From the IMG/VR virus record IMGVR_UViG_3300032229_000533, positions 62,001 through 126,000 of that record: a stretch of 64,000 nucleotides of DNA; one strand, given 5' to 3'. The notes beneath the pieces were generated by a model. That model saw only the letters and a list, made by a program, of their open reading frames with translations, was not told the DNA's origin and made no database searches. Below, piece by piece: positions 40,521 through 59,415 of this stretch. Origin of the DNA: a virus. The position numbers were made by a program, and so were the translations under genes. Every line of letters begins with the position of its first letter. The stretch's first letter is position 1.

Positions 40521-40527
40521 TATTTAT
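40521..40527 (+). promoter_or_regulatory. TATTTAT motif of 40532
   Basis: GTATTTATAGATATG: the motif ends 4 bases before the ATG of the first gene after the sigma factor, in a 15-base gap. Confidence 0.45.
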
Positions 40528-40531
40528 AGAT

Positions 40532-40900
40532 ATGCCTAGACCACAACGTAAAGAAATTAATTTTAGTAAAGATTCAATCCTATCTTTAATGCAAGAAATA
40601 TATAATGAACTTGTAGAACAAAGACAAACAGCAATTAGGATTCAAAATAAAATGTTATCAATGTTAAAAGACCCTAATGATATGATGACTATTGGACCTG
40701 TGATTGAAAAACAACAAAAAATTGTAAACGATTGCGTTGAGAAAAAAATTAGTTTATCTAAACTACAATCAAGTATTTGGGAAAAATCTAACAGCAATAA
40801 TAATGAATCTTTTTCTCTTGCGGATTTAGATGACGACCTTATTCAAAATTTAATTGATAAGGATATTTCTAATGATGAAGAGACTTATAAAATGAAGTAA
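40532..40900 (+). CDS. Unknown helical protein
   Basis: Protein of 122 residues, unknown. Largely helical with Gln/Lys-rich heptad-like spacing (residues about 15-90), ending in an acidic tail. Starts a run of virion genes; a baseplate or tail-associated role is possible. The next gene begins 2 bases after its stop. No Shine-Dalgarno sequence. Confidence 0.55.
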   Translation: MPRPQRKEINFSKDSILSLMQEIYNELVEQRQTAIRIQNKMLSMLKDPNDMMTIGPVIEKQQKIVNDCVEKKISLSKLQSSIWEKSNSNNNESFSLADLDDDLIQNLIDKDISNDEETYKMK

Positions 40901-49719: not shown

Positions 49720-51525
49720 TTATCTCAATTCTCTTAAGTCGAATGTTCTAACACCATCAACTGTGATACGTCCGTAGAATCTGTTATTCACCATTTTCTT
49801 AGCGTATCTAGTCATGATACCTTTGATTGGTGTAAAGTTGAACGGATTGTACATAGTTGGAGTTAATTGTAGAGGTACGTACGGTGCGTAGATGTAACCT
49901 GTGTCTAACAATGATGTTCCTTTGTGTCCCATTAACACTTGGTTAGGTGGGAAGTAAGGGTCACGGTAAACTTGGTAACGACCTGCTAATGTACCAACTC
50001 TTTCAATACCCATGTTGTATTGGTCTTGCTCAGGAGCTGCATTTGATACGTGGAAATATTCCAAGTCATCAAAGATTGCACTGATTTCAGAAGAAACAAC
50101 AATCCAGTTTGCTCCACCTCTTAATGTAGATTTGTGGATTTGTGCTGAAATTTGGTTGATTGCTGTGATTAAAGTTTGGTTCCAATCTTTTTGAGTGTAA
50201 GGAACTGCACTTGAACCAAGACGTTTCCAACCATTGTAGTCCCATCTTAAGTTCCAAGCTGCACCTTTACGTAAATCTCTTAAGATTTCACGGTCGATTT
50301 CAGCCGCAACTTGTTCAGATAATAAAGCTGTTAATTCAGCTTCAGCATCAATGTTGTGGAACGCTGCAACGTCTTGAGCCATTTCTGGAGACCATTGAGC
50401 TCTTAATTTTCTTTCAGTTACAGAAACTGTTACTGACATAAGGTCAAACGATACCTCACCGATTCTATCTTCAAACTCTAAGTTTTTGTAGATTCTGTAA
50501 GTTCCCGTAAATGCTGCGTTACTTGCAGTTGTTGAAGAGAATGTTGAACCTGTGTAACCGTCCATAGAACCACCACAAGTGATACATACTGGAACTTGTA
50601 AGTCAACTTCTAAGTAGATTTTACCTTCAGCGTCACATAAGTTGTCATATTGACCACCATCAGTTTTACTGTTAGGGAATACTAACGTAGCGTTGTTGTT
50701 ACCGTATTGTACAATACCTTTACCGTATCTTTGAGTTACAACTCTGAATAAGTAAGGATTACTTGCGTTTGCCGCAGTTGTTGGGTTACCAGCAACTCCG
50801 TAGATAGTTAAATCAGATAAGAAAGCTTCGTTATCCATTGGTTGACCATCAGGACCGATTAATTTACCAGCTCCATCAGATGCAAAACCTGACATAACAA
50901 CTAATACTTTTCTGTAATCAGAAGTAGTATAAGCTGAAGGTACTAAATTGTCATCTAACCAAGCAACAGTAACAACTGGTGCAGTGATTGCTGAATATTG
51001 TCCTTTAGAATAGTCAAATAAACCTGGTGGGTCTAATGCTGGTTCGTTACCTTCGTAGAATCTATCGTAAAGGTCTTTAGTGTTGTTGTAATCGTAACCA
51101 CTGTTTGGAGTTTGGTCCGAAGCTGCGTTTGGTGAACCATACGGTGCATAGTGAATACCTGTATTCGCTAAGTTAGTTGGGTCAGTGTACGCTTGGATGT
51201 TAGGTACAAAGTAGAATAATTTACCAATAGGTAAGTTCATAGCTTGTACTGATACGATGTCATTCGCTAATAATTTAGAGAATACACGTCTAACAATTGG
51301 GAAAACTACTGTTTCAAATGCACCTGTATCAGATGTAGATGATGCTTCATTGATTAAGAATGATGCTTGGTTTTCGTATAATTGTGCTACGTTTTCTCTC
51401 ATGTGACCTTTAAGACCTTCTAAAAAGCCTAATTTGTCCCATTTGTTGATTGTGTCTTCTTTGATAACTTTAAGGTGTTTTAAACCGATATTACCAACAA
51501 GACCTGATTCTAATAATGCTCCCAT
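49720..51525 (-). CDS. 23: Major capsid protein, T4 gp23-like
   Basis: Protein of 601 residues forming the capsid hexamers. VAQLYENQASFLINE followed by ASSTSDTGAF gives a (I/L)xE cleavage site after Glu60 like that cut in T4 gp23 by the prohead protease. ETVVFPIVRRVFSKLLANDI and VQAMNLPIGKLFYF (about 71-110) and EVSFDLMSVTVSVTERKLRA with EAELTALLSEQVAAEIDREI (about 360-400) are typical gp23 segments. Insertions around 120-340 make it longer than T4 gp23 (521 aa). It shares a transcript with the scaffold upstream (44-base gap without terminator). Confidence 0.94.
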   Translation of the reverse strand: MGALLESGLVGNIGLKHLKVIKEDTINKWDKLGFLEGLKGHMRENVAQLYENQASFLINEASSTSDTGAFETVVFPIVRRVFSKLLANDIVSVQAMNLPIGKLFYFVPNIQAYTDPTNLANTGIHYAPYGSPNAASDQTPNSGYDYNNTKDLYDRFYEGNEPALDPPGLFDYSKGQYSAITAPVVTVAWLDDNLVPSAYTTSDYRKVLVVMSGFASDGAGKLIGPDGQPMDNEAFLSDLTIYGVAGNPTTAANASNPYLFRVVTQRYGKGIVQYGNNNATLVFPNSKTDGGQYDNLCDAEGKIYLEVDLQVPVCITCGGSMDGYTGSTFSSTTASNAAFTGTYRIYKNLEFEDRIGEVSFDLMSVTVSVTERKLRAQWSPEMAQDVAAFHNIDAEAELTALLSEQVAAEIDREILRDLRKGAAWNLRWDYNGWKRLGSSAVPYTQKDWNQTLITAINQISAQIHKSTLRGGANWIVVSSEISAIFDDLEYFHVSNAAPEQDQYNMGIERVGTLAGRYQVYRDPYFPPNQVLMGHKGTSLLDTGYIYAPYVPLQLTPTMYNPFNFTPIKGIMTRYAKKMVNNRFYGRITVDGVRTFDLRELR

Positions 51526-53553: not shown

Positions 53554-54276
53554 TTATTTTCCCAAATAATCGGTTAATTTTTTCATTAAGTCAACTCCTT
53601 TGGATTGGAATTCTGAATTTTCTGGTGATTTATGTCGTTTTTCTTCTTCTAAGTTTTCTTCGTACTTGCTTCTATCATCAGGATTACTAAACAAATAAGC
53701 CCCTGGTGTTGATGGTGATGATACTAAGTCAAAACAAATTAATTCAAAATCATCTTGTACTTCATTTCTTTCCCCAACCTTTTTTAAAGAACCTACTCCT
53801 CTTGAAGAAACTCCCATTGTAACACCTTGTCTCATTAAGTTAGCCGCTTGGTCTCCTTTAGTTGAAACAATCCCCCTTTCGTGAAATCCTGGTGATGTCA
53901 ACAATTTTAGTTTACCCATCAAGATATTTTTATCCCACCATATATCAGTGATGATGTGAGATACTCTATCCAAGTCAATTAAAGATGACTCAGGGTGATT
54001 AAGTTCTGAAGTTGATAAACCCTTGGCAATTGCCTTCTTATAATTCTCAGCTTCTCTTTTTAATATTCTTTCAGGGTAGAATCTTCCGTTTCTATTTGGT
54101 GTATCGTATTTCTGTAATACGGCATAAAACTCAAATGGGTTTCTATAATCTAAGTTAGCAGCTTCCTTTAACATTTCTGAATTACGAATGTCTTTTGGGG
54201 AAACCCAACCCGCATCCATCTCAATCAATATACCATGACCGACTTCACTTGCTTCTAAAATTCTTAATTGTTTCAT
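53554..54276 (-). CDS. 21: Prohead core protease, T4 gp21-like
   Basis: Protein of 240 residues. The herpesvirus/gp21-type serine protease signature is visible: ELNHPESS (His94), GVTMGVSSRGVGS (Ser157/158) and FDLVSSPSTPGAYL. It cleaves scaffold and capsid proteins after (L/I)xE. WDKNILMGKLKLLTSPGF between them is also family-typical. The TATTTAT motif lies 14 bases upstream of the ATG. Confident family call. Confidence 0.93.
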   Translation of the reverse strand: MKQLRILEASEVGHGILIEMDAGWVSPKDIRNSEMLKEAANLDYRNPFEFYAVLQKYDTPNRNGRFYPERILKREAENYKKAIAKGLSTSELNHPESSLIDLDRVSHIITDIWWDKNILMGKLKLLTSPGFHERGIVSTKGDQAANLMRQGVTMGVSSRGVGSLKKVGERNEVQDDFELICFDLVSSPSTPGAYLFSNPDDRSKYEENLEEEKRHKSPENSEFQSKGVDLMKKLTDYLGK

Positions 54277-54321: not shown

Positions 54322-54753
54322 TTATTTAGTTTTTGATATTGAAAAATCAAAGTATTTGTTTTCAATAACATTATCCCTTACAATACTTCTTACTATTTTT
54401 TTAACGGATTCCTTTAATTCAGGAGATTTAAAATCAAATTCTTGATTGGTATACAAATTAACCTCTAAATTAAAAAATGATTTTTTTCCGTGGGATATCC
54501 CACTTGTTCTTAAATCTAAATCAACAATACTATTTTCTTTAAAAAGACTCGTGTCAATTGAATTAAATACGGAATGTTTTATTTCTCGGTTTAGATTACA
54601 CACGACCCGATTCCAATTATCGTGGTCAAATTTGGGGGAGACCCATGATTGAATGTTTATGTATAATGATTTTAAATTTTTAGAATCTACCGTACCATAT
54701 ACCGATTTTATCGGACTGAATAGATTTAACTTTACACTTTTTCCTTTTTTCAT
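54322..54753 (-). CDS. Unknown head-module protein
   Basis: Protein of 143 residues, no known motif. Basic N-terminus (MKKGKSVKLN), mixed alpha/beta middle with GISHGKKSFFNLEVNLYT, and a helical C-terminus. By position it occupies the place of T4 gene 67/68 (small prohead core proteins) between the portal and the prohead protease, but no sequence similarity could be judged. The gap 54754-54854 upstream has an AT-rich sequence with no clear TATTTAT in the minus direction. Confidence 0.55.
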   Translation of the reverse strand: MKKGKSVKLNLFSPIKSVYGTVDSKNLKSLYINIQSWVSPKFDHDNWNRVVCNLNREIKHSVFNSIDTSLFKENSIVDLDLRTSGISHGKKSFFNLEVNLYTNQEFDFKSPELKESVKKIVRSIVRDNVIENKYFDFSISKTK

Positions 54754-54854
54754 TAATTTTCATTGATGTCAATGTTTATTTGTTTTTTTAAAAAATAACA
54801 CAAATAAATTCCATTGTCAAAAATTTTTCAATAAATTGCGATATTTCTAATAAT

Positions 54855-55043
54855 ATGCTAATAGTAGAAGTAAAAAAAGACGGAATAGAAAAAGCCTTGA
54901 AAACTTTAAAGTCTAAAGTTATCAAGACTAAGCAAAATCAAATTCTATTTGAAAAAAAAGAATTTGTTAAAAAATCAGTTGTAAGACGAGCTCAGGTGTT
55001 GAAAGCGTCGTATGTGCAAAAAGTAAAAAATTCTTTAAATTGA
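54855..55043 (+). CDS. rpsU: Ribosomal protein bS21 homolog
   Basis: Protein of 62 residues. MLIVEVKKDGIEKALKTLKS, then EFVKKSVVRRAQVLKASYVQ, follows bS21: an N-terminal strand, first helix KALKxLK, the basic RR/KKEF loop and a final helix. Phage bS21 copies are known in large phages and may replace or compete with the host protein. In Bacteroidota bS21 helps to hide the anti-Shine-Dalgarno sequence. A lone plus-strand gene in the minus-strand head module; its 3' end overlaps the convergent 55035-55733 gene by 9 bases. Confidence 0.9.
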   Translation: MLIVEVKKDGIEKALKTLKSKVIKTKQNQILFEKKEFVKKSVVRRAQVLKASYVQKVKNSLN

Positions 55044-55733
55044 TTCTTCTAAGTTTTTTAACTTAAGGAAATTCAATTGGTCAAACTTTTCAGTTTTCAA
55101 CCTATCTATGGTTTCAGACAATTTTGTCTTTAACTCAAATTCCTCTTCTTTTTCTAAGATGACATTAAGTTTACTAATCGCACTTTCACGAATAGTTTCA
55201 AACTTGTCTTCAAGAGATTTTGAATCTTCAGAAATTAATTGAAGGAATTCTTTTTTAGATGATTCATCAAGATTTTCAACATATTTGTTCAAAGTTTGGT
55301 TTGCAATACTAACCATTGATTTCAATGGGATATTGATAGATTCTTTAACAATATTATTTGTTGAAGTTAACACACTTGTAATATTTTTTTTGGAATTAAC
55401 CCTTTCTAACAAATTTAATTTATTTGTATAAACAAGGGCGTCAATATCGGAATATCTATTTTGAACATTCTCAGATAAAGTTCTTGGTAATTTAATACTT
55501 GGCAGTAATTGTTGGATTAAACTAATACCTTCTTCTAAGAAGTCTTTAGCATCAGATTCGTTTAGTCCTTGAGGAGTACTCAATTGGTCGTACAAAGAAT
55601 ACAATTTAGACATAGTTTTGTTACTCAAAACATTTTGTTTGAATTCTTTCAACGATTTCTTAAATTCCTTTTCATCTTTGTAGGATTCAAGAAGATTGTT
55701 TTCAATTATGGATTTGATTTTTCCGAAAGTCAT
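55035..55733 (-). CDS. Unknown helical head-module protein (gp67/68 position)
   Basis: Protein of 232 residues, almost all helix and rich in Glu, Lys, Leu and Ser. No known motif. It lies between the portal and prohead protease genes, where T4 has core proteins gp67 and gp68, and its composition suits a prohead core component cleaved during maturation. Its last 9 bases overlap the bS21 gene. A TATTTAT motif lies 17 bases before the start. Confidence 0.6.
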   Translation of the reverse strand: MTFGKIKSIIENNLLESYKDEKEFKKSLKEFKQNVLSNKTMSKLYSLYDQLSTPQGLNESDAKDFLEEGISLIQQLLPSIKLPRTLSENVQNRYSDIDALVYTNKLNLLERVNSKKNITSVLTSTNNIVKESINIPLKSMVSIANQTLNKYVENLDESSKKEFLQLISEDSKSLEDKFETIRESAISKLNVILEKEEEFELKTKLSETIDRLKTEKFDQLNFLKLKNLEESI

Positions 55734-55757: not shown

Positions 55758-57614
55758 TTAGGAATTTAGTAACTTATCCAATTCTTTTGAAATTTCTCCT
55801 AAAGATTCTTGAGCTTGACCTAAATCTAAAAATGTTGACCCTTCTAATAGGTTACTTTCAACCAATAAATTCATGTTTTTAATCTTTGATTCTGGTGTAA
55901 CCGCAGCTTCTCCACCTTCAGGTGCTCCACCTTCTGCTGGTGGTGGAGGTGCCGCCTCTTCACCTCCAGCTGGCGGTGCAGTTTCAAAACCACCTCCACC
56001 TCCAAATGATTCTTCACCACCTGTTGTAGTTGTTGCTGCAGCTGTTGCAGTTCCTCCTGTAGTATTACCATAAAGTTTATCTATATTATCAAATAAACCT
56101 GTTTTACTAATAACCGTAGGAGTTGCTTTAAGTTCTTCACCAACCGCTCTTTCAATTCTTTGTTGTTGTAAATCCAATCTAATTTCTTCATCAGACCAAT
56201 TAAATATGTGTTTCTTAGCCCAAGTTGAAGATGTTGGTTGAATACCATTTCCTGGGTCAGCAACTAAATCTTTATACAATAAAACTTTTTCTTTCCAAAC
56301 ATCAATTTTTAATAAATCCGCTTGTGTTGATGGATTAGACAAACCTAATGTAAAGTTTTGTAATTCGTCTTCAAATCCCAATAAGAATAAGTGAATGATT
56401 GCAATTTTGTTTAACTCCGCAATCATACTTTTTTGAATTCTGTTGATTGTACGAGCAAAACGAATATCTTGTAATGATAAATTTTTACCATCACCAACAA
56501 CTTCTTCAAAACCTAAAAATGCTTTAGGTACACGAAGAGCCGTTAATAATTTCTTTTGAATATATTCAATATCGGCAATCTCTGATAAGTTAGTTGCTCC
56601 TGGTAATGTTGTAATTGGGTCTGGTGCTGCAGGGTCACGAACAGGAATAAAATAATCTTGGTCTACCGCCATTTGGTTAAACCTCATATCAACATTACCT
56701 GTTTTAGCATCCACAACTTGTTCTCTCTTGAACTTGTTGGCAACACGGTTTACATATGCTTCAACGTCGTCATCGTTCATGTTTCCAACAAACACCTTAA
56801 ACATTCTTCGTTCAGGTGCTCTTGACGTACGATAGATTAACATCGCATCTTCAGATAACAATAATTGTTTCCAAATACGTCTTGCCTTTTCTAACATGGA
56901 AGTACCGTACGGAAGTTTTCGGTCATCACCTAATAATCTAAAGTGAGCTATTTCCCATGATTGGAATTCCATATTTCTATTTTTCCAAGTAAAATGAAGA
57001 GCCTTTTTATTCTCATCTTTTTCTTGTGTAATATCCACAGTAATTTTGGCAGATACTCCAACCTCATGACGTTCAATTTCAATTGTTGGTAATTGTTGAC
57101 AACCAATAATACCTTTTTCAGGGTCTAATTTAAGGTAAACAAAGTTATCACCATACTTACAAGTGTTTCTTGTCCACATTGGTAAGTTGGTGTTAATATC
57201 AAGTGCATTATTAAATAAATCCGCTAATACAGATTTAATACGTTTTGATTCAGAATAAATTTGAAGGATAAAGCCATCTTCGTTTGTTGTTGTAGATTCT
57301 TCAGAATAAATGTCTAACGCCGCTGAAATTTCAGGAGTGTATTCCATTGATTCATAATCATACTGAGCGGATAATCTTGATGGTTCATAATAAATCGCTT
57401 GAGAGTATAAATTGTTTTCAACTTTAGCCCATTGATTTGTTAAATAAAATGTTTGTTGCGCTTGGAGTTTTTCTCTTTCGTAATCATCGCGATTTGGAGT
57501 ACGCAAAAGTTCTTTTTTATCAAACTTAAAAGTTGGATAATCTTGTTTTAATAAAGAGTTTGGTCCAAATGTTTTGGACAACCTCTGCCATACCGTTAAA
57601 TTATTATCACTCAT
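55758..57614 (-). CDS. 20: Portal protein, T4 gp20-like
   Basis: Protein of 618 residues that forms the DNA-entry vertex. LTVWQRLSKTFGPNSLLKQD then YESMEYTPEISAALDIYSEE (about 80-99), RNTCKYGDNFVYLKL and DRKLPYGTSMLEKARRIWKQ (about 221-240), and YRTSRAPERRMFKVFVGNM are classical gp20 segments. The C-terminal 100 residues are Gly/Ala/Pro-rich (GGEEAAPPPPAEGG) and may be flexible. Own TATTTAT motif 29 bases upstream. Confidence 0.94.
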   Translation of the reverse strand: MSDNNLTVWQRLSKTFGPNSLLKQDYPTFKFDKKELLRTPNRDDYEREKLQAQQTFYLTNQWAKVENNLYSQAIYYEPSRLSAQYDYESMEYTPEISAALDIYSEESTTTNEDGFILQIYSESKRIKSVLADLFNNALDINTNLPMWTRNTCKYGDNFVYLKLDPEKGIIGCQQLPTIEIERHEVGVSAKITVDITQEKDENKKALHFTWKNRNMEFQSWEIAHFRLLGDDRKLPYGTSMLEKARRIWKQLLLSEDAMLIYRTSRAPERRMFKVFVGNMNDDDVEAYVNRVANKFKREQVVDAKTGNVDMRFNQMAVDQDYFIPVRDPAAPDPITTLPGATNLSEIADIEYIQKKLLTALRVPKAFLGFEEVVGDGKNLSLQDIRFARTINRIQKSMIAELNKIAIIHLFLLGFEDELQNFTLGLSNPSTQADLLKIDVWKEKVLLYKDLVADPGNGIQPTSSTWAKKHIFNWSDEEIRLDLQQQRIERAVGEELKATPTVISKTGLFDNIDKLYGNTTGGTATAAATTTTGGEESFGGGGGFETAPPAGGEEAAPPPPAEGGAPEGGEAAVTPESKIKNMNLLVESNLLEGSTFLDLGQAQESLGEISKELDKLLNS

Positions 57615-57651: not shown

Positions 57652-59415
57652 TTAGCGCGAACCAAATAACCATCCATATTTTTGGTAATCAGCCTTGGTG
57701 GCCTCACCTTGATTATTCATACCATTACCCCTACCCATTTGTGGAACCATTGGGTTAAAGAAATCAGAAGAGTTTTTATTTTCATTAACCGTGGTTGCCC
57801 ATGAGTTAATCATTGCTTTAGTATGATTAGTTACTTTCTCTAAAGATTGAAACGATTTTTCCGCAACATACAACGCCATGGAAACACCCATAATACAGTC
57901 ATCATGATGACCTTTTTGGTGGTCAGGTCTACCGTTGATATATACAAACGTATTCATTTCATTGTATAATCTATTTGAATATACTTTAAATCCATGCCTA
58001 ACACCTTCTTCAAATGATGCAATAATCTGAACCCTTTTAGAGTTAAAATTAATACCAGGAATTTTTTCGTTAATTTTTGGGTCCCATTTCCACTTATTAC
58101 TTGTATCAACGTTATCAATATATAAACCACCCTGATAGTTTAATTCTTGTAATTTTCTCGCAGTAGAAATACCCATACCCCCTGTGATATCAATTACACA
58201 GTAAGCATTATACATTGTCCCCCATTTATATGCTATTTCAGCCAATACATCAGGTGGAATTTTTGCAACGTATTCTAATACTTGTTCTCTTTCATCAAAA
58301 TCAATAATTTGGATACACGAAAAGTCCTCAGAATCACCACGAGATACATCCACACCCATAACGTATTTGTGACCGTTTACAGGTTCTTTAAATATCCACA
58401 ATGAACCACCCATAAGTTTAGCTTGTGGTTCACGTAAAGTATTTTTAGCAATACCTTGCATTAATTCAGATTCAAATACGTTATCACCTGAACCTAAGAA
58501 GTTACATTCCAACTCTTGAGCTACTTTTCTTCGGTCAAACTTTAACTTTTTAACCATACTTTCAAACCACGCAGAACATGGTTTATATCCTTGGGAGATG
58601 TAATCAGTTACAACAGAATGGTCTCTGTCGTATGGATTTTCCATAGACAAATCAACAATATCTTTATCAGAATATTCTTCTCGGTTTAACAAATAGTGAA
58701 CCAAATCATTAGTTTTAACCATATACAAATCTTTTGTATATCTTGGGTCACGATACCAAAACATCTCAGATATTTTGAAATCGTTCATGTTTCTTAATGA
58801 CTGGTCATAGATTTCATAGTAGATTGGGTCATATCCGTTTGGAGTGGATACAACAATAACTTTACCCCCTGTAGATAGGGACGCCATACACGCAGACCAG
58901 AAATCTGAATCCGCTTCAATAAACGCCGCCTCGTCAAATACAAGGATAGTAGGGGTATAACCCCTCAAAGCATCCTTTGACGTTGCAACCGCTTTTACTT
59001 CACAGTCGTTACTTAATTTGAAATGTCTTTGGGAATTTTTTTCTTTTGAAAAAGTAACTCCGACCCATGCAGGCCATTGTTCTGTAAACCCTCTCACCTT
59101 GTTAGCCATCTCCATTGAGGTATCTAACTTGTTTGCAATTATAAGGATTTTTTCAGGTTTGTTCTTTTTGGCAAATACTAATCTTTTAGATATCCATGCC
59201 GCAGTTACGGTGGATACACCTGCCTGACGATACTTCAATGCAATATTTTCATTGTAGTTATCGTAATCTTCAATTAAACTAACTTGGTCGGGAAATAAGT
59301 CCAATGGGACATATTTGGATACGGTATTATCGTATGTTTGTAAGTAAGTACGAAGTGCGTAAGGAGTATTCCTCATACACTTCGTAACTTCAATAATCAG
59401 TTGTTCTCTATTCAC
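57652..59415 (-). CDS. 17: Terminase large subunit, T4 gp17-like
   Basis: Protein of 587 residues. ATPase: Walker A-like KYRQAGVST (61-69, deviant), Walker B ILVFDEAAF (157-165, D161 and E162). RNase H-type nuclease: GVDVSRGD with D356, VIDITGG with D409 and HHDDC with D505/D506. It cuts and pumps DNA into the prohead. The start at 59415 is GTG: TAA lies in frame 9 bases upstream, so no ATG lies before it, and an internal ATG (about residue 14) would be late. No Shine-Dalgarno sequence. Confidence 0.95.
   Translation of the reverse strand: MNREQLIIEVTKCMRNTPYALRTYLQTYDNTVSKYVPLDLFPDQVSLIEDYDNYNENIALKYRQAGVSTVTAAWISKRLVFAKKNKPEKILIIANKLDTSMEMANKVRGFTEQWPAWVGVTFSKEKNSQRHFKLSNDCEVKAVATSKDALRGYTPTILVFDEAAFIEADSDFWSACMASLSTGGKVIVVSTPNGYDPIYYEIYDQSLRNMNDFKISEMFWYRDPRYTKDLYMVKTNDLVHYLLNREEYSDKDIVDLSMENPYDRDHSVVTDYISQGYKPCSAWFESMVKKLKFDRRKVAQELECNFLGSGDNVFESELMQGIAKNTLREPQAKLMGGSLWIFKEPVNGHKYVMGVDVSRGDSEDFSCIQIIDFDEREQVLEYVAKIPPDVLAEIAYKWGTMYNAYCVIDITGGMGISTARKLQELNYQGGLYIDNVDTSNKWKWDPKINEKIPGINFNSKRVQIIASFEEGVRHGFKVYSNRLYNEMNTFVYINGRPDHQKGHHDDCIMGVSMALYVAEKSFQSLEKVTNHTKAMINSWATTVNENKNSSDFFNPMVPQMGRGNGMNNQGEATKADYQKYGWLFGSR

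Follow-up and report, generated by a model that had tools for sequence, protein, structure and literature searches.

Ribosomal protein bS21 is described as the most common ribosomal protein carried by phages. The described systems closest to the locus examined here are freshwater Bacteroidetes phages in which a bS21 gene lies between two genes for hypothetical proteins, on the strand opposite to that of the surrounding region encoding the large terminase (TerL), portal, protease, and major capsid protein (MCP) (Chen et al. 2022; PMC9723584). The phage proteins carry an aromatic residue at position 54, have an N-terminus that has diverged from that of the host protein, and are expressed late (PMC9723584). 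Chen et al. proposed that they substitute for their host counterpart on ribosomes and thereby favor phage mRNAs (PMC9723584). Similarly, Pelagibacter phage HTVC008M is a large myovirus with a bS21 gene for which ribosome exchange has been proposed (PMC6375957), and a pelagiphage bS21 was incorporated into E. coli ribosomes (Mizuno et al. 2019; PMC6375957). Both the opposite-strand phage bS21 and the idea of ribosome takeover are already published (PMC9723584; PMC6375957).

Some features of the host protein also bear on how a phage copy might act. In Flavobacterium johnsoniae, ribosomes lacking bS21 autoregulate bS21 synthesis via an extended Shine-Dalgarno (SD) sequence in rpsU, and initiation on SD-less mRNAs is weaker after loss of bS21 or of its C-terminus (PMC9976891). 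McNutt et al. have speculated that a phage-encoded protease directed against host bS21 might exist.

The bS21 gene and its place in the head module

The window is a stretch of 64,000 nucleotides that forms part of a 182,339-bp IMG/VR record. A first-pass annotation had placed a bS21 gene at positions 54855-55043, and this identity is confirmed by two matches of the 62-aa open reading frame (MLIVEVKKDGIEKALKTLKSKVIKTKQNQILFEKKEFVKKSVVRRAQVLKASYVQKVKNSLN). Pfam family PF01165 (Ribosomal_S21) is matched across the full domain, with residues 4-55 aligned to profile positions 2-54 of 55 (28.8 bits, E 9.8e-7, curated cut-off 27), and the best solved-structure match is F. johnsoniae bS21 (7jil_z, E 5.6e-9, residues 1-61), to which the protein is 45% identical in a full-length alignment. 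HTVC008M belongs to a Pelagibacter lineage, and the window protein is without a match in the cultured-phage collection (tblastn against 50,697 records, zero matches at E <= 0.01). A PHROGs search with the same protein gave no significant match to the S21 family. An in-frame start further upstream was ruled out, as residue 1 aligns to Met1 of F. johnsoniae bS21, and is also contradicted by an in-frame stop shortly 5' of the ATG in one relative (L041).

The first-pass annotation had suggested comparing the phage and host residues that contact the 16S 3' end, and this comparison finds the tyrosine that stacks on the anti-Shine-Dalgarno (ASD) sequence retained. Specifically, Tyr53 of the window protein aligns with Tyr54 of 7jil_z, the residue involved in aromatic stacking on A1534 of 16S rRNA. 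Among 31 group 1 phage, 24 group 2 phage, and 57 host sequences (the two phage groups are defined below), tyrosine occupies this position in 97%, 88%, and 100%, respectively. The N-terminal region behaves differently. Residues P5, G9, E10, R18, R21, and F23 are conserved in 100% of the 57 host sequences, and D24 (96%) and G27 (95%) are near-invariant, but all eight are substituted or deleted in most phage copies, with R18, R21, F23, and D24 changed in nearly all of them. The replacement for P5 is mostly acidic in group 1 and mostly Lys in group 2. Group 1 proteins also carry a one-residue deletion near positions 9-10. Elsewhere in the N-terminal region of this group, Ser predominates in place of R21 and Ile in place of D24, Thr or Ile is usual for R18 and Val or Ile for F23, and G27 is replaced by Lys or Arg. 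These alignments support classification of the phage protein as a Bacteroidota-type bS21 with the ASD-stacking aromatic kept. Clues to the host come from the solved match (Flavobacterium) and from genome relatives that are overwhelmingly Flavobacteriales. Because two host-type sequences were part of the search profile, however, this host set backs a Bacteroidota-type protein and does not identify the host.

The surrounding genes follow the order of a T4-like head module: TerL, portal, 232-aa protein, bS21 on the plus strand, 143-aa protein, prohead protease, DUF4494 protein, 520-aa protein, and MCP. As the first-pass annotation had stated, bS21 is opposite in strand to its head-module neighbors, all of the named ones being on the minus strand (Table 1). 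The bS21 gene shares 9 nt with the 3' end of the 232-aa gene, and a 101-bp intergenic region separates bS21 from the 143-aa gene. This region (54754-54854), located between the two divergent genes, also contains an inverted repeat, TTTATTTGT ... ACAAATAAA.

Table 1. Positions of the bS21 gene, its neighbors, and upstream elements in the window
Feature	Position	Strand	Basis
Major capsid protein (gp23-like)	49720..51525	-	PF07068 1.5e-71
Prohead core serine protease (gp21-like)	53554..54276	-	PF03420 1.1e-22
Conserved hypothetical, 143 aa, divergent from bS21	54322..54753	-	ORF call, relatives
Conserved TTGTCAAAA box, 5' half of the promoter-like element of bS21	54814..54822	+	Conserved in relatives
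-10/-7-like box GATATTTCTA, its end 5 nt from the ATG	54840..54849	+	PWM 8.9, start-abutting class
Phage bS21 (rpsU-like), 62 aa	54855..55043	+	PF01165 match, 7jil_z match, dN/dS
Conserved hypothetical, 232 aa, convergent with bS21	55035..55733	-	ORF call, relatives
Portal protein (gp20-like)	55758..57614	-	PF07230 1.2e-75
Large terminase (TerL)	57652..59415	-	PF03237 4.7e-14; phrog_2 1.5e-38
TATTTATA box adjoining the start codon of gene 40532-40900 (122 aa)	40521..40528	+	Comparison case

The same arrangement recurs among relatives. Group 1 comprises the 80 loci kept out of 464 relatives from a scan of viral contigs, and group 2 was obtained by using a more distant bS21 copy as a second query, which gave 80 more relatives, of which 79 were used, for a total of 159 loci. 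At all 159 loci, wherever a homologue of a flanking head gene was detected, it has the expected position relative to bS21 and is encoded on the other strand. Detections in the two sets number 80 and 77 loci for the 232-aa gene and 78 and 77 for the 143-aa gene. Moreover, the median dN/dS in group 1 is ~0.12 (406 pairs, 38 distinct sequences). On the evidence of these sequence comparisons, bS21 in this lineage is a fixed, syntenic gene under purifying selection and is not a recent moron. The earlier description of bS21 as an inserted moron gene therefore survives only in part. Flavobacterium phage vB_FspM_immuto_2-6A (NC_055915), a cultured phage, has a similar T4-like head order (portal 37% identity over 62%), but its genes from portal to MCP are on one strand and its head genes are without an annotated bS21, which is consistent with insertion. 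However, the synteny in nearly all 159 relatives and the low dN/dS speak against a recent arrival. Taken together, the term moron describes a possible origin rather than the present state of the gene.

The window shares with the phages of Chen et al. the strand opposition of bS21 to TerL, portal, prohead protease, and MCP, the two conserved hypothetical genes that flank it (the 232-aa gene being positioned like one of theirs), the aromatic residue at position 54, an AT-rich genome, and many tRNA genes. The N-terminal changes in its relatives likewise agree with the divergence those authors described (PMC9723584). Three features go beyond what the available text of that report describes, namely the loss of the rpsU SD leader, the promoter-like box abutting the start codon, and a wider class of start-abutting TATTTATA boxes. 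With regard to other genome content, a near-complete set of 24 minus-strand tRNA genes for 19 amino acids (no Trp) lies at contig positions of about 139,659-150,633 (L086 13659-18913 and L087 58-4633), and a match to the Clp protease family (PF00574, 2.3e-56) occurs among 85 contig proteins.

Upstream boxes and Shine-Dalgarno usage

The motif TATTTATA occurs upstream of contig genes 26 times, compared with 0.9 expected, and falls into two classes according to its distance from the ATG. In one of these classes the box abuts the start codon, an arrangement found for ~15 contig genes besides bS21, although some of the start codons in this class may be wrong because a simple ATG caller was used to define the reading frames. 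The better-supported starts are those of bS21, by homology, and of the gene at 40532, by its conserved N-terminus. Box spacing is unchanged in 51 of 52 distinct relatives of gene 40532-40900 and in 21 of 28 distinct relatives of gene 2324-2701. Phage immuto has the same TATTTATA motif, mostly at leadered distances. There is some resemblance to the late promoters of T4, which have the consensus TATAAATA, in that an AT-rich 8-bp box is located 5' of structural genes in a T4-like phage. However, the contig consensus is TATTTATA and does not conform to TATAAATA, and no late sigma (gp55-like) family is present among the family matches listed for contig proteins.

Upstream of bS21, the TTG of the TTGTCAAAA box is located 23 nt 5' of GATATTT[G/C]. 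Most group 1 relatives carry GATATTTGTA where the window has GATATTTCTA, and both TTGTCAAAA and GATATTTGTA are kept at near-constant spacing immediately 5' of the ATG in this group; these upstream-element patterns apply among the matches listed, and the pooled loci are biased toward bS21 because many were fetched for bS21. The gap between the end of GATATTTG and the ATG is 6-8 nt in the 80 group 1 loci, whereas the TAnnTTTG boxes of Flavobacterium host rpsU genes are 18-44 nt from the start codon. Given that the distance from the -7 box to the transcription start site is 4-5 nt for F. johnsoniae promoters (PMC6847099), a gap of 6-8 nt leaves a predicted leader of a few nucleotides at most. This geometry predicts that the group 1 bS21 mRNA is leaderless or nearly so.

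The assignment of this box to the contig-wide motif deserves some care. The bS21 box is a moderate match (8.9 versus a threshold of 7.16), with G or C at an otherwise strongly conserved position that is A in 88% of the contig sites. Other possible identities are an RNA element and the -7 box of a host sigma factor, and the conserved TTGTCAAAA box is a putative promoter half only. With a motif threshold and distance classes that were both derived from this contig, 48 of 76 distinct upstream regions exceed the threshold at the start codon, and 12 of these 48 do so at a second place as well; 6 pass only further 5', and 22 at neither place. Many group 2 relatives, L283 and L287 among them, have a TATATTTA box ~36 nt 5' of the ATG with a TAGTCAAAA box between, so transcripts there are probably leadered and near-leaderless expression would not be universal. 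One group 2 locus (L277) has the TATATTTA/TAGTCAAAA arrangement plus a start-abutting GATATATATA.

SD-like matches of 4 nt or more precede 9.1% of 164 contig genes, compared with 6.2 +/- 1.6% in shuffled sequences. SD sites on the contig are close to chance level, with clear enrichment absent, which bears out the earlier observation that start sites here lack clear SD sequences. The first-pass annotation had also reasoned that, through ASD sequestration, a phage bS21 could redirect host ribosomes to phage messages. Its premises hold with regard to protein identity, the paucity of SD sites, and the Bacteroidota type of the bS21, but there is a gap in the logic. Bacteroidetes mRNAs are likewise SD-less (PMC6847099), so ASD sequestration alone cannot favor phage mRNAs over those of the host. 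Any preference for phage mRNAs would need another source, either the changed N-terminal helix or features of the mRNA 5' end.

A clearer contrast emerges between the leaders of the bS21 genes themselves. GGAGG is present within 25 nt 5' of the start at 70 of 80 flavobacterial-type rpsU loci versus 0 of 159 phage bS21 loci, and the median stability of the duplex between leader and 16S tail is -17.9 kcal/mol for host and -1.5 kcal/mol for phage genes (distinct leaders). Compared with host rpsU and its product, the phage gene has changed N-terminal residues (one of them deleted in group 1) and is without the SD. Because the GGAGG leader is missing, phage bS21 appears to be outside the host autoregulatory loop. 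The promoter-like box, together with the missing SD feedback signal, suggests a possible route to bS21 production outside host control.

Candidate roles for the phage protein

The explanation that we favor, and hold to be somewhat probable, is that phage bS21 replaces host bS21 on the 30S subunit late in infection, freed from host feedback. The observations that underlie it are the protein family, the synteny, the purifying selection, the kept Tyr54 equivalent, the lack of clear SD usage among the phage genes, the SD-less bS21 leader, and the promoter-like box abutting the start codon. According to this scheme, the bS21 transcript would start at or within ~3 nt of the AUG, and the protein would be expressed outside the loop in which bS21-less ribosomes translate rpsU via its strong SD. 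Phage bS21 would enter host ribosomes, and its ASD-contacting tyrosine would yield bS21-replete ribosomes of the kind that, in F. johnsoniae, initiate well on SD-less mRNA. The supply of bS21 could then continue while host rpsU is repressed. An altered N-terminal helix adding further bias is possible but unproven.

Several other explanations must be weighed against this one. Phage bS21 might instead create specialized ribosomes by shifting mRNA selection toward late phage mRNAs (Chen et al. 2022), a proposal that draws on the alteration of R18, R21, F23, and D24 in nearly all phage copies, on the placement of the N-terminal helix where mRNA would bind, and on late co-expression with structural genes (PMC9723584). 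However, with host and phage mRNAs both SD-less (PMC6847099), an obvious sequence handle for such selection is missing, and we regard this proposal as rather unlikely. A less benign effect is conceivable as well. In vitro, ribosomes with a tagged pelagiphage bS21 had only ~5% activity (PMC6375957). Substitution might thus impair translation instead of sustaining it, and phage bS21 could in principle lower host translation while phage factors rescue phage mRNAs. That figure, however, comes from E. coli ribosomes carrying the protein of a pelagiphage, and active ribosomes are required for late structural synthesis, which leaves a shut-off role quite improbable. Least likely, by far, is a role outside the ribosome, such as a protein packaged in the virion or an antisense or regulatory RNA. 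The bS21 gene is inside the head module, and encapsidation was raised as a possibility by Chen et al. (PMC9723584), but a dN/dS of ~0.12 reflects purifying selection at the protein level, and the ASD-stacking tyrosine is kept.

A separate question concerns where the bS21 transcript begins. If a promoter near -50 directed transcription from a start close to TTGTCAAAA, the conserved boxes would be RNA elements in a leader of ~40 nt. The arrangement in group 2, where TATATTTA sits just 5' of a similar TAGTCAAAA box, fits such a model. In group 1, however, the -50 region is variable while GATATTT[G/C]TA and its distance from the ATG are kept, and gene 40532 has the start-abutting geometry at fixed spacing, making a leader of this type doubtful. 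A fuller version of the substitution explanation can be offered tentatively, as something plausible that we stop short of calling probable. A phage-type promoter pressed on the start codon would make a subset of transcripts leaderless, bS21 included, and bS21 synthesis would be independent of SD feedback. Ribosomes would be kept bS21-replete, and perhaps adapted to phage mRNAs that are SD-less or leaderless, with host rpsU shut down.

Regardless of which version applies, the contrast between the SD leader of the host gene and the SD-less phage gene with its box at the start codon narrows the general notion of ribosome hijacking to the question whether the phage protein both escapes and overrides autoregulation of bS21 by the host. 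F. johnsoniae transcripts are mostly leadered (PMC6847099). If the start-abutting class is true, these phages would produce leaderless transcripts in a host group whose own transcripts mostly carry leaders.
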